Source: Nostoc sp. NMS2 (GTDB lineage: Bacteria; Cyanobacteriota; Cyanobacteriia; Cyanobacteriales; Nostocaceae). From it: DNA of 64,000 bases. The notes beneath the pieces are model-generated. The model saw nothing but the letters and a program-made list of their open reading frames with translations. It was not told where the DNA came from and did no database searches. Positions 9,177 through 55,200 of this stretch are shown here, piece after piece. Position 1 is the first letter of the stretch. The number at the start of each line of letters is the position of its first letter. Location: positions 1 to 64,000 of the forward strand of contig NZ_JABXKH010000109.1 in the NCBI RefSeq assembly GCF_017115105.1. Direction: 5' to 3'. The position numbers were made by a program, and so were the translations under genes.

Positions 9177-9740
9177 TTACTTGATGAACGCCTTATAATC
9201 TTCAATTTTAGTAGCCAAGCGGGATGCTAGAAACGGGCTGGCATCGTGCAAATCTTCATAAATCTGAATACCTTCTTCTCGATATCGAATAATTTTGTCT
9301 TGATTCCAATAATGTGGAGGTGCTTGGAGATTGCTGATTCTATCTGCTAATTTCACCATCCATATTTCTCGTGGTTGCTCTTTTATCCTTCGCAAACTGT
9401 CTGACATTTGGAGATGTTTTGCTAAACTTTCATCTTTGGTCAATGCCAGTACACCATTAGCTACTGATTCACCAAATTCAGTTTTTATTTGCTCAAAAGT
9501 GGTATCAGTATCTTCAATGGTGTCATGCAAAATGGCACATTGAATAGCAAGGTTGCCATCATGTTCTATTTCGACACTTAGAGCTGCAATGATTTCCATG
9601 CTTACAAAACTCAAGTGCATGATGTAAGGTATATTTGACCCTGGCACTTTTTGACCTTGATGTGCGTGTGCGGCAAATCTATAGGCTTTGATGTAGCTTT
9701 CTTGTGACCAGTTTTGTAAGCTGAGTTGATATGTTCGCAT
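9177..9740 (-). CDS. HD-domain hydrolase, Mesh1/SpoT-like (p)ppGpp hydrolase family
   Basis: The 187-residue protein has the HD signature of RelA/SpoT-type hydrolases: AAHAHQGQKVPGSNIPYIMHL near the start, CAILHDTIEDTDTTFEQI (HD plus ED, about residues 70-88), and VKLADRISNL near 130. It lacks the synthetase and TGS domains, so it matches the small alarmone hydrolase group. The predicted reaction is removal of the 3'-pyrophosphate of ppGpp or a related nucleotide; substrate identity is inferred from family only. Several phage-defence systems also use small HD proteins. No operon partner is visible. Confidence 0.82.
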   Translation of the reverse strand: MRTYQLSLQNWSQESYIKAYRFAAHAHQGQKVPGSNIPYIMHLSFVSMEIIAALSVEIEHDGNLAIQCAILHDTIEDTDTTFEQIKTEFGESVANGVLALTKDESLAKHLQMSDSLRRIKEQPREIWMVKLADRISNLQAPPHYWNQDKIIRYREEGIQIYEDLHDASPFLASRLATKIEDYKAFIK

Positions 9741-9839: not shown

Positions 9840-10925
9840 TTATGATTTCGCAGGCTCTAGCAAAACCATTAAAATGTTTTCCCATTCATCGAAGAACCCA
9901 TCAGGCCATCGGTCAATTCTGCCGTCTTTATTAATGCGTGGTGACACAACTTTAATAAAAGCTTGACCTTGGTTTTCTTGACGTTGAAAGTAATGTAATT
10001 GCACATCCTCCGGCTCAATTTTATCACCAAGCACAGCAAGACGAATGCCGTTTAAAATCTGGTCGCTATGAGTTTCTACCACCACTTGAACGCCACAGTT
10101 AGCAGCTAATGCTAACAGCTTACCCAGCTTTGTTTGTGCTTGGGGGTGGAGTCCGGTTTCTGGGTGTTCAATCAGAATTAACGCACCCGGACTGGAGGCG
10201 AGGATTGCCACGATAATTGGTAAAACGTAGGTAATGCCGTATCCAATAGGGTCACTAAATTGTAAATTAACCAAATCCATATCTAGATATACGTCAACTT
10301 GGATGCGTAGACCAGAACTTATTTCTCCCATCCACGCCTCAACTTGGTCTAGCAAATTCATTGATTTGGCTTCCGGGTGAGCGAGTTCGGTGATGGGGAT
10401 TGGTTGATTACCGTATGTATAGAGAAAATGTGCTGTATATTCGCCAAGCGCACCAATTTGTTTAAGTTCTCGCCTTTGGTAATTTAAGATTCCTGATACA
10501 GTTGTTGCACGTTCTGATTGAAGGTGATGAAATTCTTTACTGAAAATGCTTGACTGATAAATATCGGCATCAACAGATTTGAATCCAATCTCTAAAACAT
10601 CAGCTTCTCTCTCTAATGAGTTGTAGTTAAAGTGCCATATTCCTTTAGTTTCGTTTTTTAAAATAAGCTCAAATCCTACATAGTCTTGTTTGGAATTTTC
10701 ATACAAAGCGTCCTTTGCTGTGCCAATATTTACCAAGTTTCCATTGAGCAATAAGCCAGTGTTTTGTAGTAAATTTTGCTGGTAAGATTGATGCAGCAGT
10801 GATAGTGCTTGCAACACAGAGGATTTAGCAGTGTTATTGTAACCAGAGAGTAGGGTAAGCGATTTGAATTCAACTAATTGATTTTCAAATGCTTTAAAAT
10901 TTAGCAGCCGTAATGAGCTAATCAT
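9840..10925 (-). CDS. AAA ATPase with DUF3696 (OLD-like)
   Basis: The 361-residue protein has an SMC/RecF-like ATPase fold: N-terminal RLLNFKAFENQLVEFK, a P-loop GYNNTAKSSVLQAL at residue 28, and a C-terminal Walker B with signature LILIEHPETGLHPQAQTKLG followed by ETHSDQILNGIRLAV (H-loop). The C-terminal tail (RINKDGRIDRWPDGFFDEW) is the DUF3696 block. The P-loop reads TAKSS where GKSS is normal, so the invariant glycine is alanine; this may weaken nucleotide binding. Proteins of this type occur alone or with nuclease partners in defence loci, but no partner lies next to it here. Confidence 0.85.
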   Translation of the reverse strand: MISSLRLLNFKAFENQLVEFKSLTLLSGYNNTAKSSVLQALSLLHQSYQQNLLQNTGLLLNGNLVNIGTAKDALYENSKQDYVGFELILKNETKGIWHFNYNSLEREADVLEIGFKSVDADIYQSSIFSKEFHHLQSERATTVSGILNYQRRELKQIGALGEYTAHFLYTYGNQPIPITELAHPEAKSMNLLDQVEAWMGEISSGLRIQVDVYLDMDLVNLQFSDPIGYGITYVLPIIVAILASSPGALILIEHPETGLHPQAQTKLGKLLALAANCGVQVVVETHSDQILNGIRLAVLGDKIEPEDVQLHYFQRQENQGQAFIKVVSPRINKDGRIDRWPDGFFDEWENILMVLLEPAKS

Positions 10926-11917: not shown

Positions 11918-12037
11918 TTTTTGAATGGATGACAATTTCTTGAATCCTTTTAATACCCTTTAATTTTAACAGAAATTGATACTTAAAATAGAGCGCCTAA
12001 CTCATGACTGGAAGTCACAAGTGTGCGGCTTGAAGAA
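11918..12037 (-). mobile_element. Relic of IS605 left end with tnpB start
   Basis: Read on the minus strand, this segment matches the left 106 or so bases of the element at 1338 and its first tnpB codons. It contains the same hairpin (12004-12026), the same AAGTATCA-TTTCTGTTAAAAT stretch and TTGTCATCCATTCAAAAA, the tnpB start. It follows TTGAT on the minus strand (12038-12042). The rest of the element is deleted. It supplies the last 18 or so codons of the Nif11 gene. Confidence 0.85.
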
Positions 12038-12255
12038 ATCAAATGGAATATCCTTGTTAGCCCCTGGCGCAATGATTCTTGAGAGAAGTTATAGCCACGT
12101 TCAACAGCCATAGTTATGATTGCAGCGTTATCTTTCGCACCCATTGCTTCCATCAGTCGGTCTAACAACAGTTTATCTTGGAGGGCTGCTGCAAAAAATT
12201 CCATAACTTGTAGTTCACTTTGAGCGGCATTTAGTGACTTATTCATTTTCGACAC
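11983..12255 (-). CDS. Nif11-family leader-like protein with foreign C-terminus
   Basis: The first 70 residues fit the Nif11 leader family: SLNAAQSELQVMEFFAAALQ, then DKLLLDRLMEAMGAKDNAAIITMAVERGYNFSQESLRQGLT. In RiPP biosynthesis such leaders direct modifying enzymes to a C-terminal core peptide; some Nif11 proteins have other or unknown roles. From about residue 72 the reading frame runs into the IS605 relic (SSSRTLVTSSHELGALF), so the original C-terminus, where a core would be, is lost. No lanthionine synthetase or other modifying enzyme is adjacent. It is probably non-functional as a precursor. Confidence 0.75.
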   Translation of the reverse strand: MSKMNKSLNAAQSELQVMEFFAAALQDKLLLDRLMEAMGAKDNAAIITMAVERGYNFSQESLRQGLTRIFHLISSSRTLVTSSHELGALF

Positions 12256-12325: not shown

Positions 12326-12784
12326 CTATTCTGTTTTTAAGTTATTTAATTGCTCTGCTAAACTTTCAACTTGGTTTTTCACGTATTCGATGTTTTTATA
12401 GGTGCTATCTCTAAAGTTAAAAAAATTAACCATAATTGGGATAACATCTTCACTGTGCATACAATCAAATCCTATCCACCAATCATTAGCGGTTTTTGGT
12501 AATAATTTATGACAAACTGCTCTGGGGTCTTCACTTTGGTCAGTTCCTCCAGAAAATGTAATTTTTCCATGAACCCGAATGAACTTTAATTCATTATCAT
12601 CCATATCCTTACCATAATAAGGATGAGTTTTATTAATAGCCACGTACCCAGAGAAAGTACCTTCATTTTGTCTGACTATTAAACAAGGGAATCCCAGATA
12701 AACCCATTCCATTCTGTCAGGTTCTTTTTGCCATTCACCGTCTGCCCATGCAGATTTTTCAATCCAATTCAGAGTTTCCATCAA
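12326..12784 (-). CDS. Phage/plasmid-type hypothetical protein
   Basis: A soluble protein of 152 residues, with motifs WVYLGFPCLIVRQNEGTFSGYVAI, KFIRVHGKITFSG and WWIGFDCMHSEDVIP. A terminal helix (YVKNQVESLAEQLNNLKT) may form a coiled coil. This arrangement (a GFDCxHxxD block followed by a YVxxxxxxLAEQL helix) recurs in hypothetical proteins of phages and plasmids as I remember them; the function is unknown. Its start overlaps the stop of the next upstream gene by four bases, so the two are translated together. Confidence 0.65.
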   Translation of the reverse strand: MMETLNWIEKSAWADGEWQKEPDRMEWVYLGFPCLIVRQNEGTFSGYVAINKTHPYYGKDMDDNELKFIRVHGKITFSGGTDQSEDPRAVCHKLLPKTANDWWIGFDCMHSEDVIPIMVNFFNFRDSTYKNIEYVKNQVESLAEQLNNLKTE

Positions 12785-13020
12785 TCAATAATATCCCCAT
12801 TTTCATCCCGCCTCACTTCCACCACCTTAACGTCAAAACTTTCCCACTCCTCCACACTAAACCCCGCCTCGGTTTCTTCTGGATACCGCCGTGCCATTTC
12901 CTGCCAAGCAGCCTCTTCGTTGATTGCCCAGATGTAATGACCCTGGCGTTCTCTAAGGTCATCTCGACCTATGCAGTCGTGTGAGTATAATGCGTTACGT
13001 GTACAGCGATATTCTCTCAT
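12781..13020 (-). CDS. Small acidic hypothetical protein
   Basis: Seventy-nine residues beginning MREYRCTRNALYSHDCIGRD and ending RRDENGDIID, with a WAINEEAAWQEMARRYP helix in the middle. Two cysteines and a histidine near the start could bind metal, but the pattern is not a known finger. The gene overlaps the following one (12326-12784) by four bases. Its start lies only 8 bp from the start of the divergent HNH gene, so both promoters must overlap the opposite coding sequence. Confidence 0.6.
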   Translation of the reverse strand: MREYRCTRNALYSHDCIGRDDLRERQGHYIWAINEEAAWQEMARRYPEETEAGFSVEEWESFDVKVVEVRRDENGDIID

Positions 13021-13028
13021 AACTGCGA

Positions 13029-13994
13029 ATGGCCAAAGATTTAGCTTACTACGTTAAGAAATTTTCTCCCAAGTATGTTGTTGGAAAGCTAGGCTTAAAT
13101 GTTAGCCCTGGTGCGCCCAATAAACCGATTTTGCTTTTATCTATCATTGAAATGATAACTACTGGGCAAATAGTGAGAAACCAAATTCCTCTATCTGCTG
13201 AACTCATCGCCACATTTCTCAAACTGTGGAGCCACCTGGAGCCAGTACGCAAGCCGGATATAGGTTTACCTTTTTACCACCTCACCAGTGACGGTTTCTG
13301 GTATTTTGAGATGAAACTGGGGTTTGAATCATTGATTGCTGCCAAGGTGAAAATCAGAACTCCCAGTACTATTAGGCAAACTGTAGAGTATGCTTACCTC
13401 GATGATGAACTCTGGTCACTCCTGCAAAAAGAGAGCGATCGCACTGTACTAACCCACACACTAATTAATTCCTGGTTTAACGAGCGTACACAGGATATCG
13501 AGTCATTATTGCAAGTCAACGCCTTTGCTGAACTACAAGACCAGTTGCAACGCTCCGGCGGTAAGGTTTACCAACCAGAGGAATTAGAAGATGAGCAAGC
13601 TGTAATTGTGCGAGATGGGGCGTTCCGTAAAATCGTTGTCTCAACTTACAACCACACTTGCGCCTTTTGCGGGTTACAGATACTCGATTCACTCGGTCAG
13701 AACATCGTTGATGGCTCACACATCAAACCATTTTCCCAGTTCTACGATGACCGCATTGATAACGGGCTGTCACTATGCAAAAATCATCACTGGGCATTTG
13801 ACCGCTTCTGGTTTACTATCAACGATGATTACACTATCATCGTCTCTGACAACCTGCGGGAAGATTCACCCAACGCTAGACCGATGCGAGAATTTAGGGG
13901 CGATCGCATTATCCTTCCAGCCCAGGAACAGTATTATCCTAGACTTGATTCACTACAATGGCATCGTGAAGAGTTTTCAAGGCGTGCTGCATGA
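13029..13994 (+). CDS. SBD-HNH endonuclease, ScoMcrA/SprMcrA-like type IV restriction
   Basis: The N-terminal half (about residues 28-110) contains APNKPILLLSIIEMITTGQI, LSAELIATFLKLWSHLEP and FYHLTSDGFWYFEM, the pattern of the ScoMcrA-like sulfur-binding domain that reads phosphorothioate-modified DNA. The C-terminal half is an HNH nuclease: CAFCGLQIL (zinc), VDGSHIKPFSQFYDD and LCKNHHWAFDRFWF (about 213-265). The predicted role is cleavage of incoming modified DNA. SBD assignment is from motif reading, so the preferred modification is uncertain. The stop overlaps the next gene by four bases, as do the next two genes, so the three form one operon. Confidence 0.8.
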   Translation: MAKDLAYYVKKFSPKYVVGKLGLNVSPGAPNKPILLLSIIEMITTGQIVRNQIPLSAELIATFLKLWSHLEPVRKPDIGLPFYHLTSDGFWYFEMKLGFESLIAAKVKIRTPSTIRQTVEYAYLDDELWSLLQKESDRTVLTHTLINSWFNERTQDIESLLQVNAFAELQDQLQRSGGKVYQPEELEDEQAVIVRDGAFRKIVVSTYNHTCAFCGLQILDSLGQNIVDGSHIKPFSQFYDDRIDNGLSLCKNHHWAFDRFWFTINDDYTIIVSDNLREDSPNARPMREFRGDRIILPAQEQYYPRLDSLQWHREEFSRRAA

Positions 13995-14851
13995 GTAAAA
14001 AACCTAGAGGTTGGTTTAATGAAATTGTTATTCGTCCCGTTGTTCATGTAGACGGTTACGAAAGCTATGAAAAGATGTGCGGTATTGTTGCAGAATTTTA
14101 TTACTCTTCGGAGGAACAAAAGCTACTGCGCCAACTAAGAACTAACCCCAAGGATTCAAGGTATATTACCCTCTACACGCTTTTTAAAGTAGGGCAAGCC
14201 AAATGCCCTGCTTATTGGGTAAATAATGATTTATTAAGCGCATTGATGCAATCAAATTTAGATATTGAAGTTGAAAATTTGCAGTGGGCAATGAAAACAG
14301 GATTTTTTATGTTGCCCAAGGGTGTAGTTCTTTCCCCAGAAAAACGTAGTATTGATACAATTTTTTGGCATTGTGATACATCTGATGACTTACTTTATTG
14401 GGCTGCAATAGATAGGGATACCGTTTTCTGCCGCAGATTGAAAATTAGCGATAATTTCAAAAAATTTACATATACTGATACTCAAGATTTCAATCCCCAA
14501 GTAGTTACAGATTTTAATCAATATCTACAATCAATTTTCTTGCGATTAATTTTGATAATGGAGTGTCGCCCGGAACTTGTAGATTCAACAAGCGAACTAG
14601 TCAGAGTGAATAGAGGTTTTGGCAAAGCGCAAGCCCAAGATTTTTATCAACCACTTTGGCTAGGACTTGGATATAAACTCAAACGTGAAGGGACGCAAAG
14701 CAGTGAAGGCAGTAGCGGTACACATGGTACTAAGAGTGTCCATTGGCGCAGAGGCTTTTTACGTAATCAACCTTACGGAGAAGGCAGACAGCAAAGAAAA
14801 CTAGTTTGGATTGAGCCAGTTTTAGTAATGGGTGGGAAAGAATCATCATGA
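13991..14851 (+). CDS. Unknown protein with C-terminal HWRRG motif
   Basis: The 286-residue middle gene of the nuclease operon overlaps both neighbours by four bases. The body has no motif I can name; it is mixed alpha-beta with a hydrophobic helix near residue 185 (YLQSIFLRLILIMECRPEL). The C-terminus has HGTKSVHWRRGFLRNQPYGE and ends with KLVWIEPVLVMGG. HWRRG-type tails of this kind occur in phage and plasmid hypothetical proteins, including some labelled AcrVA2-like, but I would not transfer that name. Tight coupling to an HNH nuclease and a DUF262 protein points to a defence role. Confidence 0.7.
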   Translation: MSKKPRGWFNEIVIRPVVHVDGYESYEKMCGIVAEFYYSSEEQKLLRQLRTNPKDSRYITLYTLFKVGQAKCPAYWVNNDLLSALMQSNLDIEVENLQWAMKTGFFMLPKGVVLSPEKRSIDTIFWHCDTSDDLLYWAAIDRDTVFCRRLKISDNFKKFTYTDTQDFNPQVVTDFNQYLQSIFLRLILIMECRPELVDSTSELVRVNRGFGKAQAQDFYQPLWLGLGYKLKREGTQSSEGSSGTHGTKSVHWRRGFLRNQPYGEGRQQRKLVWIEPVLVMGGKESS

Positions 14852-15342
14852 TGACAGACGATGAAATTAATGGCAAATATGAATCTGCTCAAGACAGACT
14901 AATTCAAGAAATTGACAGGATAAAGTTACCAGCCTTAGTTGAAAAAATTAGGTCTAATCCTAATTACATGAGGATTGATAATTATAGTCAATCTGCTGTG
15001 GATTGGGATGATGTTAAAAAATCCCAGTTAATTGAATCTTTTATTATTAATTTTCCTGTAATGCCAATTGTTATCTATGAAAAGTCATATCATACATACA
15101 AAGTTATTGATGGCAAACAAAGGTTAAAAGCAATTGTCGATTTTTTCAGTAATAAATTAGTTTTGAGCGGACTAGAAGTTAAGACCGAACTAAATAGATG
15201 CACTTATGCTACTCTTCCATATCATGCAAAGACAGTGCTGAATCGCTATTCTCTATCTTTGATATCGGTTATCCCTTCAGAGGATGCCAGCCTCGAAGAA
15301 ATAGCAAAAATCATAGAGATTATTGCAGAACGCCTTAATTAA
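14848..15342 (+). CDS. Mini-DUF262 protein, GmrS/ParB-like NTPase half
   Basis: The 164-residue protein has the N-terminal core of DUF262: MRIDNYSQSAVDWDDVKKSQLIESFIINFPVMPIVIYE, then VIDGKQRLKAIVDFF, the DGQQR-type nucleotide motif with K for the first Q. Full DUF262 proteins are 350 residues or more and are often fused to an HNH (GmrD) domain. Here the helical and nuclease parts are absent, while an HNH nuclease is encoded two genes upstream in the same operon. It could be a natural minimal partner or a 3'-truncated gene; the 165 bp after its stop show no continuing DUF262 coding. Confidence 0.75.
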   Translation: MMTDDEINGKYESAQDRLIQEIDRIKLPALVEKIRSNPNYMRIDNYSQSAVDWDDVKKSQLIESFIINFPVMPIVIYEKSYHTYKVIDGKQRLKAIVDFFSNKLVLSGLEVKTELNRCTYATLPYHAKTVLNRYSLSLISVIPSEDASLEEIAKIIEIIAERLN

Positions 15343-41531: not shown

Positions 41532-44372
41532 ATGGTCATGCTAAAATCCTTCCAACGGCTTGGTTATTTTCCCCACCCCGAACTAGTACCAATTGCGGTT
41601 ATTAAACATCTACGGTCGTGTTTAAAGTTACAAGATTGGGTAAAAGCCATTCCATCCGAACGCCAACGCTACACTTATCTTCAGGCGATTCGGGATTATC
41701 TGAAAGTCAAACAGTATGATAAGGCAGGTCAAAGATTAATAGCCGCATTAGTTGCAGAAGCTGCGGAGGTAAAAGACCACCCTGCTGATTTAATCAATGT
41801 AGCCATTGAAGAATTAGTTAAAGAACGATACGAGTTACCAGCATTTAGTACCCTTGACCGATTAATTCGCCACATTCGTTCAATGGTCAATAATCGCTTG
41901 TTTGCACTTTGTTCTGAAGGGCTTTCCATCAACGAGCAGATTTATTTAGACCAATTGCTAGCGGTTACGAATAATGAGCTAGATGAAAATGCCACACTTA
42001 ATTTACTGAAATCGCCACCTAAAAGTGCCAAACTTAGTGGGATAAAACTCCTACAAAGTAAGTTTGATATTCTTATGACCTTTGGTGATGCCAAGCGACT
42101 GCTACAAAGTATTGCTATCACCAAAGTTAGACATTTTGCAGCACAGGCTAGGGCTTTGGATATCTCGGAATTTCAAGATATTAATTTACCCAAACGTCGG
42201 ACGTTGCTGTTATGTCTATTGTACGAGGCACAGGTTAACACCCGTGATTATCTTGTTGATATGTTTATTAAACGTATCCTCAAGATTCAAAATAATGCTA
42301 AACAGCGATTGCAGGAATTACGCGACAAACATTTAACTGAAACATCAGAGTTATTGGCTACCTTTGGGCAAGTATTAAAAGCATCTACAAAAGCCAAAGA
42401 AACTCAGGATAATGCTATTTTTGGAGAACAGGTGCAATCAATTTTGGATGAACATGGTGGTACAGAATTGCTGTTGCAAAAGTTGGATGAGATTGCAGCG
42501 TACAACACCAATAACCATTTACCGTTGATGTGGCGGTTTTATTCTGCCAATCGGAAAGCACTTTTTAGTTTGGTACGTTCTTTAGATATTCTCTCTACTT
42601 CTGCTGATGAGTCAGTAATTGAAGCATTAAAGTTCGTGTTAGAAAATCAACACAAACGCGCCAAGTATTTACCTTTTGAGATTGATTTAGATTTTATTAG
42701 TAGTAACTGGCGTGCGCTAGTTGTAGAAGAAATTGATGGAGCTGAGGTTTTGGTTCGTCAGCAGTTAGAAATTTGCATCTTTTCAAATCTAGCAACTGAA
42801 TTTAAAACAGGAGATGCGTGTGTTGTGGGTTCGTCAAGTTATGCCGATTTCCGCGAACAATTATTGAGTCATGCTGAATGCGAACCTTTGATAGAAGAAT
42901 ACTGTCGCTTACTTGAATTTCCTGCTAACCCAGATGACTTTGTTAAACACCTACAAGATAAATTAGCACAGGTAGCTTTCGTTGTAGATAATATTTGTGC
43001 GGTTGATAAACAATTCACTATCAATAAAGACGGAGAACCTGTACTTAAAAGAATCCCATCCCTAGCTCAAACGGATGAAGTGGAAGAATTAGAATCAAAA
43101 ATTCGGGCTTTGATGCCGGAGCGCAGTATCTTAGAAATCCTTTGCAATGTTGAGCATTGGTTGAACTGGACAAGGCATTTTGGTCTATTTTCAGGAAGCG
43201 AACCAAAAATATCTGATCCTGCTGAACGTTATATTTTTACTACCTTTAGCTACGGCTGTAATCTTGGCCCTAATCAGATGGCTCGTCATTCCCAAGGTGC
43301 AGTGACAAGTCACATGATTTCTTATACAAACCGTCGCCATATTAGTGCTGCCAAAATTGAAGCTGCAATTCGGGATATTATCAATACGTACAACCGTTTT
43401 AGTTTACCGTCTTGCTGGGGTACAGGGAAAAAGGCTGCTGCTGACGGAAGCAAGTTTGAGATATACGAGAATAATTTACACAGCGAGTATCACATCCGCT
43501 ACGGCGGTTACGGTGGTATCGCCTATCACCATGTCTCTGATAAATATATTGCTTTGTTTACCCACTTTATCACCTGTGGTGTGTGGGAGGCTGTCTATAT
43601 TTTGGATGGGCTGTTGAAAAATCTCTCAGATATTCAACCGGATACTTTGCACGCAGATACTCAAGGTCAATCTGGGCCTGTGTTTGCTATTTCCTATCTT
43701 CTCGGTATCAAATTGATGCCGCGTATCCGTAACTGGAAAGATTTAACTTTTGTTCGCCCCAGCGCAGATGTTACTTACAAGTATATCGAACCGTTGTTTA
43801 AGGGCGTGGTCAATTGGAATTTAATCAAGATTCATTGGTATGACATGATACGTGTAGTACTGTCAATTAAGGCAGGTAAGGTGATGCCTTCGATGCTTCT
43901 ACGTAAATTGGGTAGCTATAGTAAGAAAAATCGACTTTATCAAGCTTTTCTTGAGTTGGGCAAGGTAGTGCGAACAATGTTTTTGCTCGACTATGTTTCT
44001 AATGTGGCTCTTCGCCATGAGATTACAGCGATAACGAATATTGTGGAGATGTACAATGCCTTTCTGGACTGGGTGTTCTTCGGTAAGCTGGGAGCGATTA
44101 CTGAAAATGATCCTATTGAGCAGGAAAAGCGGCTGAAGTATCTTGATTTGGTAGCAAGCGCAGTTATTTTGCAGAATACGGTTGATATGTCGTTGGCTAT
44201 CCAAACGTTAATGTCACAGGGCGAATTGATTCCTATGCGACACCTTGCAGCAATGAGTCCATACATAACAAGACATATCAAAAGATACGGTGATTATGTG
44301 GTGAATTTACATAATATTCCCCAACCATTGGAGGCTGCTATTAATCTTCCACCAGAAATCTTTGAAACCTAG
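41532..44372 (+). CDS. tnpA: Tn3-family transposase TnpA
   Basis: The annotated 946 residues begin MVMLKSFQRLGYFPHPELVP (DUF4158) and include the DDE core: AADGSKFEIYENN (first Asp, about residue 640), LHADTQGQSGPVFAISYLLG (second Asp, about 700) and DYVSNVALRHEITAITNIVE (region of the Glu). It cuts at the 45-bp inverted repeats and makes cointegrates. The frame stays open upstream to 41376 with clear coding (RLIDRTAYPKFKQFPNPKEL, then AELYTPQSEEIKLAKS) but contains no ATG, GTG or TTG. The true start is therefore a rare codon, or the 5' end is damaged. Confidence 0.92.
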   Translation: MVMLKSFQRLGYFPHPELVPIAVIKHLRSCLKLQDWVKAIPSERQRYTYLQAIRDYLKVKQYDKAGQRLIAALVAEAAEVKDHPADLINVAIEELVKERYELPAFSTLDRLIRHIRSMVNNRLFALCSEGLSINEQIYLDQLLAVTNNELDENATLNLLKSPPKSAKLSGIKLLQSKFDILMTFGDAKRLLQSIAITKVRHFAAQARALDISEFQDINLPKRRTLLLCLLYEAQVNTRDYLVDMFIKRILKIQNNAKQRLQELRDKHLTETSELLATFGQVLKASTKAKETQDNAIFGEQVQSILDEHGGTELLLQKLDEIAAYNTNNHLPLMWRFYSANRKALFSLVRSLDILSTSADESVIEALKFVLENQHKRAKYLPFEIDLDFISSNWRALVVEEIDGAEVLVRQQLEICIFSNLATEFKTGDACVVGSSSYADFREQLLSHAECEPLIEEYCRLLEFPANPDDFVKHLQDKLAQVAFVVDNICAVDKQFTINKDGEPVLKRIPSLAQTDEVEELESKIRALMPERSILEILCNVEHWLNWTRHFGLFSGSEPKISDPAERYIFTTFSYGCNLGPNQMARHSQGAVTSHMISYTNRRHISAAKIEAAIRDIINTYNRFSLPSCWGTGKKAAADGSKFEIYENNLHSEYHIRYGGYGGIAYHHVSDKYIALFTHFITCGVWEAVYILDGLLKNLSDIQPDTLHADTQGQSGPVFAISYLLGIKLMPRIRNWKDLTFVRPSADVTYKYIEPLFKGVVNWNLIKIHWYDMIRVVLSIKAGKVMPSMLLRKLGSYSKKNRLYQAFLELGKVVRTMFLLDYVSNVALRHEITAITNIVEMYNAFLDWVFFGKLGAITENDPIEQEKRLKYLDLVASAVILQNTVDMSLAIQTLMSQGELIPMRHLAAMSPYITRHIKRYGDYVVNLHNIPQPLEAAINLPPEIFET

Positions 44373-44925: not shown

Positions 44926-47900
44926 GTGACTGACATTGTAACTGGACAGATTGTGCGCGTGCGATCGCGGCAATATCTTGTAGAAGAAGTTGTGTCGAAA
45001 CCGTCTCCAGAGCAAGACACTAAAGTTAGTCTTTCTTGTTTAGAAGATGATGCGTTAGGAGAATCGCTAGAAGTTCTTTGGGAACGGGAAATAGATGCCA
45101 AAATCGTCGGGGCAACATCTTGGGATTCCATAGCAAATCGAGGTTTTGATAATCCGCGTCTATTTTCTGCCTATCTGCACACATTACGGTGGAATTGCGT
45201 AACCTCCACAGATGCCAAGCTTTTCCAAGCGCCTTACCGAGCAGGTATAGAAGTCAAAGCGTATCAGCTAGAGACCACTGCGTAAAGCTTTACTGATGCC
45301 GAGAGTTGGTTTGTTTATTGCCGATGATGTCGGTTTGGGGAAAACCATCGAGGCAGGGCTGATACTGCGTGAGATGTTGATGCGGCAAAAGGTTAGACGA
45401 GTCGTTATCTCGTGTCCGCCGTCAGTGGTAAGGCAATGGCAAGAAGAAATGGAGAGTCGCTTTGGACTCACATTTATGATTCTGGATCGTGAGTTTATTG
45501 CTGCCCGTCGTCAAGAACGGGGTTATGGAATTAACCCTTGGATGACACACACTAGGTTCATTATTTCCCACGCTTTGCTACGAGATGAAACCTATGCCGC
45601 ACCATTACGGGACTGGCTTGGTGATTTTGCGGCTGCTTCCATGCTCATCCTGGACGAAGCTCACAATGCTGCACCTGCGAGTGGTGCAAAGTATGCCGTT
45701 GATTCCCAACTTACCAAAACTGTTCGAGATTTAGCACCGCGTTTTGAACACAAGCTGTTCTTGTCTGCCACTCCCCACAATGGACACTCCAACAGCTTTG
45801 CTGCCTTACTAGAAATTCTCGACCCCCAGCGTTTCTGCCGAGGAGTACCCGTTCGTAATCGCAAGTTGCTGGACACAGTAATGGTGCGGCGCTTAAAACA
45901 AGATTTACGGGAGATTGGAGAAGAGTTTCCCCAACGCTACGTTCTTCCTATAGTTATTGATAACCTGCCAGAAGACGCACCAGAACTCAAATTATCCCGA
46001 TTGCTGCAACAGTATCGCAATCTGCGTGAGGAAAAGCTCAAAGATGCAGCGAAATCTACCCAGACTACGGCGATGCTGGTGATTACTTCACTACAAAAGC
46101 GTCTTTTGTCTTCCATTGAGGCATTTGCTCGGACTTTAAAGGTGCATCGGACGGGGATGGAAAAGCAAGCGGCTCACCGCCCCACCATACATCAAGTCAG
46201 TCTACCTTTGCTGTTTGAATCCCCTGGTGCAGACGACGAACGGGCTGAATTCTCCGAAGAGGAAGTAATTGCAGAAGAAGATGCTCAAATGACAGCAGCT
46301 AGTATGCAGGCTGCCGGACAAACAGCGCGTGAATTAGCAATTTTAGATGAAATGGCAGATGTAGCTAATTCCTCTCGCTACCAGCCAGATCCGAGGATTC
46401 AACAACTGGTGGAGTGGATTCGCCAAAATCTTTGTCCCGATCTGGGTCAAGCGAATGCTGCTTGGTTAGAAAGACGAGTAATTATATTTACAGAATATAC
46501 AGATACTAAATGTTATTTACAACAGCAATTACAAAGTGCGATCGCTAATTCTAACCGCGAACAAGAACGCATAGATGTATTTCACGGGGGCATTGGAGAA
46601 GAACGCCGCGAAGCGATTAAAAGTGCATTTAACGCTGATCCAGCACGTCATCCCCTACGAATCCTGATTGCTACAGATGCAGCACGGGAGGGAGTGAATC
46701 TGCAAAATAACTGTGCTGACTTGTTCCACTTTGATGTGCCGTGGAACCCATCAAGGATGGAACAGCGTAACGGACGGATTGACCGCAAATTACAGCGATC
46801 GCCTGTTGTCCATTGTTACTACTTTGTTTTACCGCAACGCACAGAAGACAAAGTATTGGATGTACTGGTGCGGAAAACAGCCACGATTCAACAAGAACTT
46901 GGCAGCCTTGCACCAGTAGTTGAAAGAAATGTGTCGCGCCTACTCGCTAATGGAATTCGCCACCAAGAAGTAAATAATCTTGCCGACTCTATTAATAAAG
47001 CAGAGCAACTCAGTAACAAGGAAACAGTAAACACACAGGTAATTAATGAGGAACTGGAGCAAGCCAGACTCCGCCAACAGGATTTGACTAAACAAGTTGA
47101 GAATTTACAAGAAATGTTGCAAGAATCGCGGAAGTGGTTGGGACTAGATGACAATCACTTCCGTAATGCCATCTCTGCTTCTTTAGAAATTCTGGGAGTC
47201 CCAACACTTGCCCCTGTAGATGTGAATGAAGTTGCTAACAATCCTGTAACTGCGCGTTGGACAATTCCGGCTCTCGACCAGCGTACTGGTGCAGATCCAA
47301 CATGGTCAACTACACTTGATACCCTGAGAACACCTCGAAAAATCGGACAAAAGCCTTGGGAATGGCGAAAAGAAGCACCGATTCGTCCTGTAGTTTTTCG
47401 AGATCCTGGTTCTTTAGATGGGGATGTAGTTCATCTGCATTTAGAACACAGAATTGTCCAGCGTTTACTGAGCAGGTTTTTAGCTCAGGGTTTCTTGCAC
47501 GATGAATTAACTCGTGCTTGTGTTTGTCTAACTAATGACCCAATGCCAAAAGTGATTGCGCTGGGACGGCTGGCTCTGTATGGTGAACGGGCTTCTCGCT
47601 TACACGACCAAGTAATTGCAGTAGCAGCAGAATGGTCAGACCCAATCAGCCGAGGACGCAAGAAACTTCAATCTTTAAGAGAAGGCGAGAAAGACAACGT
47701 ACTGGAATTACTGGAAAATTCCCTAGCTTCCCCTCACTTGCTGGAAGTTGCCGAAGCGGTAAAAGAGCGATTGAAAAAAAGTGCTGCCCAAGATGTAGCA
47801 GAATTAATTCCTCATCTGGAACGCCGCGCCACAGCTTTGGCTGAAAGGGCTGAGAAAAACCTGGCCAATCGCGGTACTAAAGAAGCTGCTGAGATGAAGA

Positions 47901-48148
47901 AGATTCTGGAGGAACAGCAGACGCGAATTCTCAAGTGCCAAGAAGAATCTAAGGCAGTGCAGTTGTCTCTTCCATTTATAGAAGAACAGCGCCAATTGGA
48001 TGCAGACCGTCGCCATTGGGAAAAACGCCTGCAAGCGATCGCAACCGAACTAATTTCAGAACCAGCCCGGATTGAAGCCGCCTACAAAGTAAAAGCAGTG
48101 CGGGTTGAGCCAGTCGGCGTAATTTATTTATGGCCGATTTCCGGCTAG
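44926..48148 (+). pseudogene. drmD: drmD, DISARM class 1 SNF2-like helicase, frameshifted
   Basis: The N-terminal 119 codons (GTG 44926, ribosome site AAGGGGG) end in GIEVKAYQLETTA and a stop at 45285. The helicase continues from 45296 in another phase: LFIADDVGLGKTIEAGLIL (Walker A), LILDEAHNAAP (motif II), LSATPHNGHSNSF, VIIFTEYTDTKCYL and TDAAREGVNLQNNC with RNGRIDRKLQRS (motif VI). Removing one A near 45274 gives YQLEPLRKALLMPRVGL, which joins the parts smoothly. DrmD is the SNF2-like ATPase of class 1 DISARM. It may be inactive, or the base may be an assembly error. All helicase motifs lie in the second frame. Confidence 0.88.
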
Positions 48149-48162
48149 AGGGAGTATAAACA

Positions 48163-51100
48163 ATGGCAAACGATCCAGAAATTCGGTTACATAAAGAATG
48201 GTTAGGCTTTCTCCAGCCGGTGGGGTTGGTGGTGTCTCCGCCTGCATTGTCAGCAGCCCAAGCTGTGGTTAACCGCAATGTGGTAGAACTGCAACAAACA
48301 TTGCAAGAAGTTGCCAGACGCGAACCCGTCTCCGGTGACATAGGCAAGAAAACCTTTGGAATTGACGACTTTCCTGCTTTTACTATCAATGTTTTAGGTT
48401 GGCAACCAGAAGATTTAGTTGTCAGTCCAGAGTCATTAGCGATCGCACTCCCAGATTACAACGAAGTTTTGACACCCACATATGCTGTACCCGACCCTAA
48501 TGGCGGTTGGATGATGCTGGTACAGGTGCTTCCTGATGGGACTGAACTCGACAATGCAGGCGCGGAGGATAGTAAATCTACTGGTTGGCACGCCAGCCCC
48601 CAGTCTAAGTTTGAGCGCCTTTTAAAAGAAACAAAAGTTTACATTGGGCTATTGTGCAACAATACAGAATTGCGTTTGGTTTATGCACCACTTGGTGAGT
48701 CATCGGGACACCTGACTTTTCCTGTGCAGGCAATGTGTGAGGTATCTGGGCGGCTGATTTTGGGTGCAATGGAGATGTTGCTCTCGGCTGATCGATTGTT
48801 TAATGTCCCTAGCGATCGCCGTTTGTCTGCAATTCTGGAGAAAAGCCGGAAATATCAAAACGATGTCTCTATTAAGCTAGCAGAGCAGGTATTAGAGGCA
48901 TTATGGGATTTACTGCGCGGCTTCCAAATAGCAGATGCAACTACTAAAAGCGGCTTAATAAGTGATATTGCCACGACTGCACCCCAGCATATTTACGGTG
49001 GACTGATTACCATCTTGCTACGGTTGGTGTTCCTGCTTTACGCTGAAGACCGTGGACTGATGTCTCAAGATGCAGTTTATACACGCTACTACTCAGTTAG
49101 TGGACTTTACGAGCGCTTAAGAGAAGATGCAGGCAACTACCCAGATACAATGGATCAACGGTATGGTGCTTGGGCATGGTTGCTGAGTCTGTTTCGTTTG
49201 GTTTACGACGGCGGCGGTCATGCTGATTTGTACTTACCTGCTCGTCATGGGCAACTATTTGACCCAGATGAATATCCGTTTTTAGAAGGTCGTCCCCAGT
49301 ATACAGCATATCAAACAGGGGAAAGTCTTGAACCCCCTCGCGTTTCAGATGGTGTCATTCACAGAGTATTGCAAGGGTTGCTGGTACTGGATGGAGAACG
49401 CCTGTCTTACCGTTCTTTGGATGTTGAGAAACTTGGCTCTGTTTATGAAGCAGTTACGGGCTATGAGGTAGAAAGAGCAAGTAGTCCTGCCATCGGTGTT
49501 TGGAGTAAACCTAAAGGTTCCAAATCTTCGGTGACAGTTGTTGTCAGCGTTGAGGAAGTTCTCAAAACTAAGGTGGGAGAACGGGCTAAATATTTAAAGG
49601 ATGTTGCAGGTTGCGAAATTACTGGTAAATCCCTAACTGAGTTCAAGGATGCGAGGACAGCAGAGGATGTAGTGGCGGCGTTAGGACGCAAGGTATCACC
49701 GAAAACGCCGAGTTTAATGCCTGTGGGTTCTCTGTATTTGCAACCGGGGGAAGAACTGCGGCGTAGTGGTACTCATTATACGCCTCGTACTTTGACAGAG
49801 CCGATTGTTAAAGAAACCCTCAGACCGATTTTATCAGCTTTGGGAGAAAACCCCACACCTGAGCAGATTTTAGAGTTGAAAGTTTGTGATTTGGCGATGG
49901 GGTCAGGGGCATTCTTGGTCGAAAGTTGTCGTCAGTTGGCTGAAAAATTAGTTGAAGCGTGGAATAAGCAAAACGTATTACCTGAAATTCCAATTGATGA
50001 AGAACCATTACTTTATGCGCGGCGGTTAGTGGCGCAACGGTGTTTGTATGGTGTGGATAAAAACCCTTTTGCAGTGAATTTGGCTAAGTTATCTTTGTGG
50101 CTGGCGACTTTGGCGAAAGCTCATCCTTTTACTTTTTTAGACCATGCGTTGAAATGGGGTGATTCCTTAGTTGGGTTAACTTCTGAACAAATTAAAACGT
50201 TTAATTGGGATGAAGATAAAACCTATACAGACCCCAATTTACCTTTGTTTAATCTGTCGATGGAGAAGGTGAAGTTTGACAGAGATGTAATTCACAAGTT
50301 AGATGAGGACAATTATGCAGCGAAGCGTGTTTTTTACGAAAATATAGAAACAGAGTTGCATGATATTCGGCTAAAAGGGGATTTAGTTATTGCTTCCTTT
50401 TTCGCTAAGGATAAGGATAAGGCGAGAAAGGATGAGCGTGATAATTCATGGTTAAAGTTTTATAACAGGCAGAAAAATCAAGAAGATGATTTAGATGTCA
50501 GGCGAATTTGTGCAGAGTTGCGGTATGGTGAAAAACCTGTTCCCGCGTTTAATTGGGAGATTGAACTTCCAGAGGTATTTGATAGAGATAATCCGGGGTT
50601 TGATGCGATTGTTGGTAATCCACCATTTTTAGGTGGTAAACGAATTAGTACAGTATTAGGAGATAGTTATAGAGATTGGTTGCCTGTAGTAAATCCAGAA
50701 GCTAATAACAATAGTGATTTAGTTGCTCACTTTTTCAGACGAGCGTTTACACTGTTACGGAAGTTTGGCTCTTTTGGCTTGATTGCTACAAATACTATTT
50801 TTCAAGGTGATACACGTAGCAGTGGATTAAGCTATATCTGTCATAATGAAGGTATAATTTACAATGCTCAAAAGCGGTTAATTTGGCCGGGTTTAGCAGC
50901 CGTTATTGTAAGTGTAGTTCACATTTTTAAAGGTGAGTATAAAGGTATAAAGCTGTTAGATGGGCGCGAAGTTGACTTAATTTCTGCCTTTCTATTTAAG
51001 TCAGGTGGACATAAAAACCCTGCTGTTTTATTAGCAAATACTAATAAAAGTTTCATTGGTAGCATTGTGCTGGGAATGGGTTTCACATTTGATGATTCCA

Positions 51101-52134
51101 ACCCTGACACTACACCTATTCCAGAAATGCACCGTTTGATTGAACAAAATCCCAAAAATCAAGAGCGAATATTTCCTTATATTGGTGGAGAAGAGGTTAA
51201 CTCTAGTCCGACTCATTCACATCATCGCTATGTAATTAATTTTGGTGAGATGAGTGAGACGGAAGCGCAAGAATATTCAGATTTGTATAAGATAGTCAAA
51301 GAAAAAGTTTTTCCAGAACGAAAGAATAAGCCAGGAAGCTATAGCCGTCAGTGGTGGCTTTTTGGGCGTAGAAACCAAGAGGGTAATAAAGCGATAGCCC
51401 CTCTTAATCGTGTATTGGTAAGTTGTATTATCGGTAAACATTTATCTTTTGCATTTTTACCAAATGGGATGGTTTATTCTCATAAATTAGTCGTTTTAGC
51501 AATAGATAAAAATGCAGCTTTTACTATTTTACAAAGTCGTATTCACGAAATATTTGCACGATTTTTTTCTTCTACTATGAAGGATGATCTTAACTATTCT
51601 CCTACCGATTGCTTTGAAACCTTCGCCTTCCCCGAAAACTGGGAAATCAATTGCACCCTAGAAACTGTGGGTAAAACCTACTATGAATACCGCGCCGCCT
51701 TAATGGTTCGTAACAACCAGGGACTCACCGACACATACAACCGCTTCCACGATCCCGACGAACGCCACCCCGATATTTTACAACTACGCTTACTCCACGC
51801 CCAAATGGATCGGGCTGTCCTCAATGCTTACGGCTGGACAGATATTTCCACAGACTGCACCTTCCTGCTTGACTACGAAGACGAAGAAGACGACGAAAAC
51901 ACCAGCAAACGCCAGAAGAAAAAGCCTTGGCGCTACCGTTGGGCTGAAGAAATTCATGACGAAGTATTAGCCCGCTTACTCGAACTCAACCAGCAACGCG
52001 CCGAAGCGGAAATTTTAGGCGGTAAGGCTGCTGAGAAATCCAAGGGAAAAGGGAATACTAAAAAAGTAGCGAAATCTCGCAAGGCGACGGAAACGACTTT
52101 AACTATTCCTGATTTTCCCTCTACTTCTATGTGA
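48163..52134 (+). CDS. drmMI: DrmMI, DISARM class 1 adenine methyltransferase
   Basis: A 1323-residue N6-adenine DNA methyltransferase with motif I KVCDLAMGSGAFLVESCRQL (about residue 570) and motif IV DAIVGNPPFLGGKRI (about 820), preceded by SGTHYTPRTLTEPIV as in Eco57I-type enzymes. The Lys-rich C-terminal tail (GNTKKVAKSRKATETT) is likely unstructured. In DISARM this enzyme marks host DNA as self. It starts 15 bp after drmD, so the two are in one operon. No frameshift or missing catalytic residue is visible. Confidence 0.92.
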   Translation: MANDPEIRLHKEWLGFLQPVGLVVSPPALSAAQAVVNRNVVELQQTLQEVARREPVSGDIGKKTFGIDDFPAFTINVLGWQPEDLVVSPESLAIALPDYNEVLTPTYAVPDPNGGWMMLVQVLPDGTELDNAGAEDSKSTGWHASPQSKFERLLKETKVYIGLLCNNTELRLVYAPLGESSGHLTFPVQAMCEVSGRLILGAMEMLLSADRLFNVPSDRRLSAILEKSRKYQNDVSIKLAEQVLEALWDLLRGFQIADATTKSGLISDIATTAPQHIYGGLITILLRLVFLLYAEDRGLMSQDAVYTRYYSVSGLYERLREDAGNYPDTMDQRYGAWAWLLSLFRLVYDGGGHADLYLPARHGQLFDPDEYPFLEGRPQYTAYQTGESLEPPRVSDGVIHRVLQGLLVLDGERLSYRSLDVEKLGSVYEAVTGYEVERASSPAIGVWSKPKGSKSSVTVVVSVEEVLKTKVGERAKYLKDVAGCEITGKSLTEFKDARTAEDVVAALGRKVSPKTPSLMPVGSLYLQPGEELRRSGTHYTPRTLTEPIVKETLRPILSALGENPTPEQILELKVCDLAMGSGAFLVESCRQLAEKLVEAWNKQNVLPEIPIDEEPLLYARRLVAQRCLYGVDKNPFAVNLAKLSLWLATLAKAHPFTFLDHALKWGDSLVGLTSEQIKTFNWDEDKTYTDPNLPLFNLSMEKVKFDRDVIHKLDEDNYAAKRVFYENIETELHDIRLKGDLVIASFFAKDKDKARKDERDNSWLKFYNRQKNQEDDLDVRRICAELRYGEKPVPAFNWEIELPEVFDRDNPGFDAIVGNPPFLGGKRISTVLGDSYRDWLPVVNPEANNNSDLVAHFFRRAFTLLRKFGSFGLIATNTIFQGDTRSSGLSYICHNEGIIYNAQKRLIWPGLAAVIVSVVHIFKGEYKGIKLLDGREVDLISAFLFKSGGHKNPAVLLANTNKSFIGSIVLGMGFTFDDSNPDTTPIPEMHRLIEQNPKNQERIFPYIGGEEVNSSPTHSHHRYVINFGEMSETEAQEYSDLYKIVKEKVFPERKNKPGSYSRQWWLFGRRNQEGNKAIAPLNRVLVSCIIGKHLSFAFLPNGMVYSHKLVVLAIDKNAAFTILQSRIHEIFARFFSSTMKDDLNYSPTDCFETFAFPENWEINCTLETVGKTYYEYRAALMVRNNQGLTDTYNRFHDPDERHPDILQLRLLHAQMDRAVLNAYGWTDISTDCTFLLDYEDEEDDENTSKRQKKKPWRYRWAEEIHDEVLARLLELNQQRAEAEILGGKAAEKSKGKGNTKKVAKSRKATETTLTIPDFPSTSM

Positions 52135-52207
52135 GAGGTTCAACGTTAGCCATACCGATGAATTCCCAAAAAAGCATAGCCATCCTAAATCATTTATGAA
52201 CACTTAC

Positions 52208-52235
52208 TGTTCCCTGTTCCCTATTCCCTGTTCCC
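52208..52235. repeat. Heptamer tandem repeat (TRTTCCC)x4
   Basis: Four exact-length copies of TGTTCCC or TATTCCC in the gap between drmMI and drmA. Short tandem heptamers of this kind are typical of heterocystous cyanobacteria. It could affect transcript stability within the operon. Confidence 0.75.
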
Positions 52236-52245
52236 TGCCCTCATT

Positions 52246-55200
52246 ATGACCACATCTGCCGAAGTGCGATCGCATTTAATCCGCGCCATGCAACTAGACT
52301 TGGTGGGGCCAACCCCTGATGATGTTGAATATGGCGAGGAAATCCTCACCCAAGCTCCTTCTAAGTGGTATCTTACAGGTTTTTTAGTACCTTTTGGAGC
52401 GCCTGTTGAAGTGCGATCGGACGAAACAGCAGATGACACACTCGAACAACTTAGTAGCAGTGATACTAATGAAGATGCCAATGCTCCCGAAGCCTCCTCA
52501 GCCCGTAAAGCTCACTTTCCTTCTTCCATTGGCTTGAGCTTTCTTCTACCAGAAAATACCACAGAACTGAATATAACTGTGCAATGGGGTGACTACCAAT
52601 TTCTTGAAAGCGAAACAGAATTAGATGATAGCGAGAATCCCCAGTCAGCCAAGCAAGAATTATGGCAACGCTCTCCTCATTGCATTAGTATGCCTATTTC
52701 CCTGCTGGGAAATCAGCGAAAAATTCAGATTGAAGTTCCAGACAGCAACGGCTTAAAGTTATTTGTGTCAAATCGGGCTGTAGCTTCATCACCTCAACAA
52801 AAACTCCCTGTTGGTACGCGTTCAGTTTCAGTATTCTTAGTTAACTACCGCAGCAACAATCCCAACCAAAAGCACGACATCAGTTTTATTTTTCAAGCCT
52901 GCCTCACCATCCGCACAGCTGACGCTTTTGTATCCCGCCCTAACTTGCGGGGGCAAAACAGCCAAGACAGGGACGAAGCGGTGTCAAGCCTGCAATACCG
53001 CAACGATTGCGAATATGCTGTTGGACACAACGTTTCTGCTATTACTATCCTTAGCTCGAATCATATCTGTCAAGAAATTCGTACTAACTGGATGCCCACA
53101 GCAGAGGTGGCCAGAGTAGAACCAGCAGAAATTCCGGGGCTAGAACTAGGCATGGAAGCACTAGCTAAGGCAAAAGACGCGGCAACTATATCTGAGATGG
53201 TTTACCCAATGGTGACTGCATATACTGACTGGATTACCAAACAGCAAGCCGCAGCCCCCACTGAACCGCACCAGAGAAAGATGAAGAGTGAATTATTAAC
53301 CACAGCTAGCAGAATTAAGCAACGCATAGCCGCCGGATTACAAGCTTTAGACGATCCTCTGGTGTTAGAAGCTTTTCAAATTGCTAACCAAGCCCTAGCA
53401 ACTGCTAGAAGACAACGCCTAACTCACGATAATCCAGACAAATCCCCTGAAGACTTTTCACCACCGAAGTGGCGACCTTTCCAGCTAGCTTTTCTGCTGT
53501 TGAACATCCTGAGCATTGCTCAACCAGAACATCCAGATCGGGAAATAGTAGATTTGCTGTTCTTTCCCACTGGTGGCGGCAAAACCGAAGCCTATTTAGG
53601 GTTGGCAGCGTTTACTCTCGTGCTGCGTCGTCTGCGCGATCCTAGTATCCACTCTGCTGGTGTCAGCGTTCTCATGCGCTACACTCTGCGCCTCCTGACT
53701 CTAGACCAATTGGAAAGAGCCGCAACCCTCGTCTGTGCCTTAGAACTAGAACGTCAGCAAAATCCTAGACTAGGTAAGCATCCCTTTGAGATTGGGTTGT
53801 GGGTTGGGCAGGGTGCCACACCCAATAAAATGGGTAAAAAAGGCGACAAAGATAATTCAGCTTGGGCGCGGACTCAAGAATTTGATCGGCATTATCCTCA
53901 TAAACCAAAGCCGATTCCCCTAGAAAGGTGTCCTTGGTGTGGCACGGAATTGAAAGCGCGATCGTTTCAACTTTTACCACTTGCGGATGCACCTACTGAC
54001 CTGCGGGTAATCTGCGACAATCGGAAAAAACACGCGGATGGTAAACCTGCTTGTGTATTTAAAGGCAACAATCCCCTACCCATCGTAGCCGTAGATGAAC
54101 AAATCTATCGACGGCTTCCTTGCTTCATAATTTCCACCGTTGATAAATTTGCGAATCTGCCTTGGGTTGGTCAAACTGGAGCGCTATTTGGCAAGGTAAC
54201 TCATTTTGATGAAAAAGTAGGATTCACTGGGCCAGCTGATGCTAAAACCAAAGGTCGAGCCTTAGACAAAAATTTACCTCCACCAGATTTGATTATTCAA
54301 GACGAATTGCACTTGATTTCTGGGCCTCTGGGAACAATGGTGGGATTATACGAAACGGTTATCGATGTTCTGTGTAGTGTGACGCACAATAATAAAACTA
54401 TCCGACCGAAGATTATTGCCTCCACTGCTACAGTCCGCCGTGCGGAGCGCCAAATTCAAGCTTTGTTTAGTCACAGCCAGGTAGATATTTTTCCGCCTCC
54501 TGGGCCAGATCGCCACGACTCCTTTTTTGCCGAAACCGTACCAATCACTAAAACACCGGGACGGCTTTATGTCGGAGTTGTAGCCCAAGGACGCAGCCTT
54601 AAAGTAGTTCTGTTACGAGCATACTTAGCCCTGTTGGGAGCAGCTAAACAAGCTTGGGAAGATGCCGGCGGAAAAACAAATCAGCATAATCCTGCTGACC
54701 CTTATATGACACTGCTAGGTTATTTTAATTCCCTGCGGGAATTGGGTGGTAGTCGCCGCCTAGTGGAAGATGAGGTAAACTCCCGCCTGAGTCATTATGG
54801 CGATCGCCGTCGCTACCAAGAACCGTTTAGCTTATTTTGCGATCGCAAAATTGATGATGAACCGGAAGAATTAACCTCTCGCATCAGCACTAACAAAATT
54901 GCTAATACCAAACGTCGTCTAGCTTTACCTTTTCATGAGAAAGAAAGAGTTGATATTGCCCTAGCAACTAACATGATTTCCGTAGGGCTAGATATCACCC
55001 GCTTAGGGCTGATGGTAGTTTTAGGACAGCCGAAAACCACTGCTGAATACATCCAAGCCACCAGCCGCGTCGGTCGAGAAGCTGAAAAACCTGGTTTAGT
55101 CGTTACCTTACTCAACATTCACCGACCGCGCGATCGCTCTCACTACGAACGTTTTCAAATCTGGCATGATACTTTCTACCGCACAGTGGAAGCAAGTAGC

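Follow-up and report, generated by a model that had tools for sequence, protein, structure and literature searches.

A three-gene operon joining a candidate phosphorothioate-dependent nuclease gene to a gene for a protein with the predicted AcrVA2 fold, followed by a short DUF262 gene, was identified in DNA from Nostoc sp. NMS2 (GCF_017115105.1, NZ_JABXKH010000109.1, positions 1-64,000; this 64,000-nucleotide stretch is referred to here as the window, and coordinates are window positions). Tentatively, we propose that the operon represents a plasmid-borne SBD-HNH nuclease which is limited by a co-translated AcrVA2-family protein acting on nascent chains. Its features are as follows:

13029-13994, + strand: gene 1, SBD-HNH endonuclease of 321 residues, with a phosphorothioate-reader-fold domain and HNH_2
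13991-13994, + strand: four-base ATGA stop/start overlap of genes 1 and 2, read from the sequence
13991-14851, + strand: gene 2, protein of 286 residues with the predicted AcrVA2 fold (the 'HWRRG protein')
14848-14851, + strand: four-base ATGA stop/start overlap of genes 2 and 3, read from the sequence
14848-15342, + strand: gene 3, mini-DUF262 of 164 residues, an NsnA-type N-terminal domain ending at ERLN, with a degenerate first motif and DGKQR kept

The open reading frames (ORFs) and both overlaps had been described in a first-pass annotation of the sequence and were confirmed, as were its assignments of gene 1 as an SBD-like domain combined with HNH and of gene 3 as a 164-residue DUF262 core. 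The contig is 79.7 kb long, of which the window constitutes the first 64 kb. When its first 25 kb were compared with plasmid records, the best six of 33 matches were Nostoc/Tolypothrix plasmids between 65 and 292 kb in size, aligned over 22-39% of these bases, indicating that the contig is very probably a plasmid.

The recurrence of the operon was assessed in a set of 39 loci, which excluded the twice-fetched L032, L033, L078, L079 and L098 as well as L128-L130, where only 35-51 residues were matched. Removal of L034 (the L117 locus) and L109 (with the assembly and gene lengths of L108) left 37 loci, many of which are from closely related Nostoc and not independent. In 28 of the 34 loci having at least 1.2 kb of upstream sequence (including L127, where gene 2 is split and its first piece overlaps the nuclease gene by 4 bases), a same-strand SBD-HNH gene precedes gene 2 by at most 500 bp, and in three further loci (L114, L122 and L124) it lies within 4.1 kb of gene 2. 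An even draw of 291 genomes yielded six with the close gene 2 family, all six with SBD-HNH next upstream. The first-pass annotation had suggested examining whether relatives of the middle gene stand beside SBD-HNH genes; close relatives do so in the 28 loci above, and the pairing of genes 1 and 2 is conserved, the first encoding SBD-HNH, as that annotation had read it. In contrast, an intact mini-DUF262 gene (at least 150 residues) was observed within 700 bp downstream in only 12 of the 36 loci having at least 1.2 kb of downstream sequence, and is therefore an optional member of the operon; elsewhere it is shortened (three loci), lies 2.2 kb away (L126), is represented by a 45-residue piece (L102) or is lacking (19 loci). 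The 4-base overlap was seen in nine of the intact mini-DUF262 genes.

Ratios of nonsynonymous to synonymous substitution rates (dN/dS) between the window and its orthologues were 0.07-0.15 for gene 1 (nine of ten pairs, the tenth being saturated), 0.11-0.23 for gene 2 (13 pairs) and 0.20-0.58 for gene 3 (12 pairs). Given the recurrence of the gene 1-gene 2 pair, the full trio in some loci and the low dN/dS values, the three-gene arrangement is not a product of chance. Among more distant gene 2 relatives (L037-L047, n=11), L041 and L042 possess an SBD-HNH gene, with a DUF262 gene of 151 or 162 residues between it and gene 2. An SBD-HNH gene lies 770 bp from a distant gene 2 in L165, and in G079, G143 and G273 the two genes share a contig at a distance of 19-44 kb. 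Ten annotated plasmids with a distant gene 2 exhibit varied neighbours, and the trio was present only in that of Chondrocystis (the L042 locus).

Gene 1 displays the domain order, SBD followed by HNH, of phosphorothioate (PT)-dependent SBD-HNH endonucleases such as SprMcrA and EcoWI. Residues 29-149 match SBDHga1 (PDB 8h0l, E=1.1e-14), the C-terminal domain is HNH_2 (PF13391, 46.2 bits, cut-off 21), and the PADLOC HNH model scores 71.2 bits; the nuclease families returned by the Pfam scan of genes 1-3 were HNH_2 and a sub-threshold HNH_4 only, with no DUF1524. However, gene 1 falls below the cut-off of NF045808, the curated NCBI model of PT-DNA-binding restriction enzymes (119.1 versus 180 bits), and differs from those enzymes in its dndC-positive hosts and its AcrVA2-fold operon partner. 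The sulfur cavity of ScoMcrA is lined by H116, R117, Y164, P165 and A168, of which P165 and H116 are the most conserved, with lysine tolerated for R117, according to the extracted text of PMC6224610. The counterparts in gene 1, aligned with SBDHga1, are N31, K32, L80, P81 and H84, where the transfer from ScoMcrA to SBDHga residues is our own interpretation of the order of motifs. Gene 1 retains the critical proline and a positively charged residue, whereas the cavity histidine is replaced by asparagine in the window and near relatives and is still histidine in some other members of the nuclease clade.

The middle protein, regarded in the first-pass annotation as unknown, was recognized from its structural models as an AcrVA2-fold protein. 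The match to AcrVA2 (PDB 7CI1/7CI2) was obtained only when the Foldseek list was re-examined with VIA-align, AcrVA2 not being among the best 50 PDB matches listed by plain Foldseek. Gene 2 is 12% identical to AcrVA2; its single sequence gave no match to it, one profile ranked AcrVA2 first (E=0.21), and another placed it weakly (E=7.6) below an unrelated match. No Pfam, PADLOC or NCBIfam match was found at E≤1, a collection of phages contained no homologue at E 0.01, PHROG gave weak matches only (best 0.005), and a library of predicted virus structures yielded seven matches at E≤0.001, the best (2e-17) being an uncharacterised Mediterranean phage protein. Most gene 2 relatives carry the precomputed Pfam label PF26125, which we take to mean AcrVA2-like. 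The AcrVA2 mechanism is called the first documented translation-dependent mRNA degradation as a prokaryotic CRISPR-inhibition strategy in the excerpt of a review (PMC13131331). Unlike AcrVA2, gene 2 is carried by cyanobacterial plasmids next to a nuclease gene; a limited literature search, which is no proof of novelty, found no description of a relative of AcrVA2 adjacent to an SBD-HNH gene.

Gene 3 contains a partial PF03235 (GmrSD_N/DUF262) domain (53.9 bits, cut-off 33.2) and is closest to NsnA (PADLOC, 78.1 bits, profile positions 49-172 of 385), of which it lacks the C-terminal half. In an alignment with two longer relatives (389 and 397 residues), it stops exactly at ERLN, where the relatives continue as ERLNTGG or ERLNSGG; the YQR motif of these full-length relatives is also missing from the mini-DUF262. 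DGKQR is present in 12 of 13 mini-DUF262 sequences (DGRER in L035), and the length of 164 residues is shared by 11 loci, the window among them, pointing to a stable short form. This recurrence rules out a local truncation, as well as the first-pass concern that the gene might be a truncated copy of a full-length neighbour, yet relative to the two longer proteins it is an N-terminal piece. Judged by its motifs, the mini-DUF262 is probably poor or inactive as a nucleoside triphosphatase. Three Vibrio phages carry genes 37-38% identical to it over 84-86% (e.g. PQ189375.1, 31364-31771).

GmrSD, BrxU and SspE (DUF262 plus DUF1524) resemble the operon in combining a DUF262 domain with an HNH nuclease. 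A split GmrSD, as the first-pass annotation had envisaged, was nevertheless ruled out: DUF1524 is absent, the nuclease is a separate SBD-HNH protein of the HNH_2 type, and the DUF262 is a degenerate, NsnA-type N-terminal domain.

The same annotation had noted no dnd or ssp genes in the window and taken the host to be unmodified. The former stands for dndC, whose sole match in the genome lies on another contig (ssp genes were not searched), but the latter is ruled out as far as genes go, as that contig encodes DndC (733 bits, cut-off 290), DndD (740, cut-off 246) and DndE (142, cut-off 72). Beside them are two DGQHR-domain matches, one above and one below cut-off, together with a methyltransferase of the dnd-associated type, and the host DNA is, from its gene content, probably phosphorothioated. 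dndC was detected in 227 of the 291 Cyanobacteriales genomes, in agreement with the dnd enrichment reported in an extract of PMC8569181, which also describes dndFGH as absent in these cyanobacteria.

Within the nuclease clade of the window (at least 56% identity, one match per genome, two further partial G207 matches excluded), 12 of 15 genomes contain dndC, the others being G161, G050 and the 73% complete G237. As this rate is close to the overall one, the clade does not avoid dnd-bearing hosts. Among the cases listed, the nuclease was on a contig other than that of dndC in nine of nine. In contrast, for more distant SBD-HNH matches of the same domain order (40-53% identity, n=65), the place of dndC is listed for 36, of which 34 lie 81-3283 bp from it and two on another contig; among the other 29, at least G105, G155 and G176 fall outside dndC-positive genomes. 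A tree of 54 nucleases placed 39 rows in a supported branch (96/89) that excludes the rows labelled dnd, and 31 of these 39 have a close gene 2, three a distant one and five neither, with L167 (no gene 2) outside. The dnd label was applied by clade: ten of 14 such rows have a listed nearby dndC, L149 and L160 come from dndC-positive genomes with no place listed, and L147 and L148 from genomes without a dndC match.

In a published survey (PMC7461809), fewer than 3.6% of such enzymes are possibly associated with dnd clusters, and SBD enzymes are expected not to co-occur with dnd unless they have another specificity or low activity; because of this expectation, the coexistence in cyanobacteria is unusual. 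SBD, SRA and HNH proteins in dnd loci have been proposed to tell host from invader DNA (PMC10853773, in extract). The SBD-HNH genes near dndC (e.g. G265:C3:3112266-3113195) stand in a group reported to be without dndFGH and may represent the missing restriction partner; the G265 copy contains one in-frame TAG.

Upstream of gene 1, a divergent arm was identified with the following features:

12781-13020, - strand: conserved 79-residue gene, start codon 8 bp from the SBD-HNH start
12326-12784, - strand: 152-residue ORF with a TTG start and no NCBIfam match
11983-12255, - strand: Nif11-domain ORF (PF07862, 29 bits), recurring in sister loci
9840-10925, - strand: NsnB-like DUF3696 AAA ATPase (PADLOC NsnB, 352 bits; DUF3696, 72.1 bits)
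9177-9740, - strand: HD-domain protein beside the NsnB-like gene (PF13328, 49.1 bits), at the outer edge of the shared neighbourhood

The 79-residue gene exhibits a dN/dS of 0.12-0.16 (11 pairs). In 12 loci picked because it neighbours the SBD-HNH gene, the gap between the two starts is 8 bp in nine and 6-15 bp in three; in L095, L097, L105, L107 and L110, a second HNH gene sits between them. We infer that adjoining arms must share or overlap promoters. In the window (13020-13029), the 8-bp gap would place promoters within the opposite coding regions or entail leaderless transcripts.

The NsnB match spans profile positions 1-344 of 345. Of the 36 other loci, several of them on short contigs, 15 contain a match to the NsnB-like ATPase (a 54-residue piece in one case) and 20 a match to the second HNH gene (pieces in four cases). 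The latter encodes an HNH_4 protein of 387 (L092, 4605-5768) or 346 residues (L095, 4382-5422), is often accompanied by the NsnB-like ATPase, and together with it resembles a Septu-like ATPase-HNH pair. The 152-residue ORF was considered as a remnant of this HNH gene and rejected: blastp against two sister HNH proteins gave no match, and in L033 and L111 the ORF coexists with an adjacent HNH gene of full size, and is therefore a separate gene. We take NsnA and NsnB to carry the name Menshen and NsnC to denote a TOPRIM/OLD protein. No NsnC-named match was obtained with PADLOC in 14 scanned neighbourhood proteins, the presence of an NsnC model in the library not being confirmed. A literature search under the Nsn gene names found no paper; Menshen is linked, in the excerpt of one paper, to DUF262 and an OLD nuclease. 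In G143 and G079 (L164, 3599-12337; L166, 3043-11824), an NsnB-like gene has an antiparallel mini-DUF262 gene 23-27 bp away and a second one at ~6.7 kb, possibly a minimal two-gene relative of Menshen.

The presence of an AcrVA2-shaped partner in a nuclease operon suggests that a dangerous nuclease is furnished with its own brake. According to the proposed mechanism, the SBD-HNH and AcrVA2-family proteins would be translated together from the plasmid message, and the latter, like AcrVA2 in the case of Cas12a, would bind to a peptide still being synthesized, for which the simplest candidate is the SBD-HNH chain of its own message. Binding would trigger message decay, keeping a potentially self-harming nuclease low in probably phosphorothioated hosts, and the operon would serve defence against other mobile DNA. 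The optional mini-DUF262, with most catalytic motifs lost, could act as an NTP-binding adaptor or sensor, and the divergent arm (the 79-residue gene, often with the NsnB-like ATPase and second HNH) may be part of the same regulated locus.

Several observations weigh against this mechanism. A search of the PDB by plain Foldseek returned nothing at E≤0.001 with the two gene 2 models, and no sequence match to AcrVA2 was obtained at that threshold. The cavity histidine, among the most conserved SBD residues, is asparagine in gene 1, which places PT reading in doubt. One type of gene 2 accompanies two kinds of SBD-HNH N-terminus, and no private target peptide is visible there, the N-terminal motif being uninformative in that it also occurs in nucleases of the dnd-linked clade. 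Between the window and L094, dS is 0.31 in gene 1, 0.37 in gene 2 and 0.09 in gene 3, and this inequality within one pair of loci indicates that the genes have been exchanged separately and reshuffled. SBD-HNH is absent within ~8 kb of a close gene 2 in L118, L119 (which share one plasmid) and L123; nine of the 11 distant gene 2 loci have no SBD-HNH or DUF262 gene nearby, and nine of the ten annotated plasmids list no such neighbour, many genes there being just 'hypothetical'. The gene 2 family at large is therefore not tied to an SBD-HNH nuclease.

The three close relatives without SBD-HNH, together with the mixed contexts of plasmid-borne gene 2 relatives, favour the main rival, a defence and anti-defence cassette in which gene 2 would act in trans, targeting a nuclease that belongs to the host or to a competing element, and would share no more than a message with gene 1. 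AcrVA2 itself is a trans-acting inhibitor, and the window also carries DISARM. However, the spacing of at most 500 bp between the close clade and one nuclease clade (28/34) is tighter than a free-standing inhibitor needs, and no Cas12a was found in any of the nine genomes searched, where the control was silent too; the cassette is regarded as a possible if rather doubtful explanation. A conventional multi-subunit modification-dependent restriction complex (a new type IV layout), in which SBD-HNH cuts, gene 2 is a structural or specificity subunit and the mini-DUF262 a nucleotide gate, would account for the tight, conserved operon under purifying selection, and DUF262 gates nucleases elsewhere (PMC10952713, in part). 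Such a complex nonetheless appears unlikely when the mini-DUF262 is intact and close in just 12 of 36 loci, with dN/dS up to 0.58, and lacks YQR and everything past ERLN; moreover, the extracts on AcrVA2 do not describe it as a nuclease subunit.

We consider it very improbable that the core is instead a larger Menshen- or Septu-like locus of NsnB-like ATPase, second HNH and mini-NsnA, to which SBD-HNH and gene 2 are mere neighbours. The strong NsnB match 2.1 kb from gene 1, the recurrence of this ATPase and the second HNH in other loci, the resemblance of the mini-DUF262 to the N-terminal part of NsnA, the mini-DUF262 genes adjoining NsnB-like genes in G143 and G079, and the 8-bp spacing of the divergent starts all speak for it. 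On the other hand, the arms lie on opposite strands, the window lacks the C-terminal half of NsnA, no second HNH gene was found in its divergent arm and no NsnC-named match among the 14 proteins scanned, and NsnB or DUF262 is often missing where SBD-HNH and gene 2 are found.

If a co-translated brake does operate, the AcrVA2 mechanism would gain a role in natural cells and, adjacent in the genome, a target of its own, making its decay machinery testable. A puzzle also arises in that plasmid nucleases thought to cut phosphorothioated DNA reside in hosts with phosphorothioation genes. More broadly, and in our estimation improbably, AcrVA2-family proteins could be an ancestral class of regulators on plasmids, sensing nascent chains and bringing about destruction of the message, the cyanobacterial one braking a sulfur-reading nuclease and letting the plasmid keep a PT-sensing weapon in PT-modified hosts, with the anti-CRISPR AcrVA2 an exapted form.

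Elsewhere in the window, PADLOC identified a DISARM set at 45296-58348 (DrmD, DrmMI, DrmA, DrmB and DrmC), in which the match of DrmD to its best model starts only at profile position 136; a Tn3-family transposase gene (41532-44372) lies upstream. An IS605 OrfB/TnpB-type gene at 1444-2670 was matched by TnpB genes of other Nostoc plasmids.
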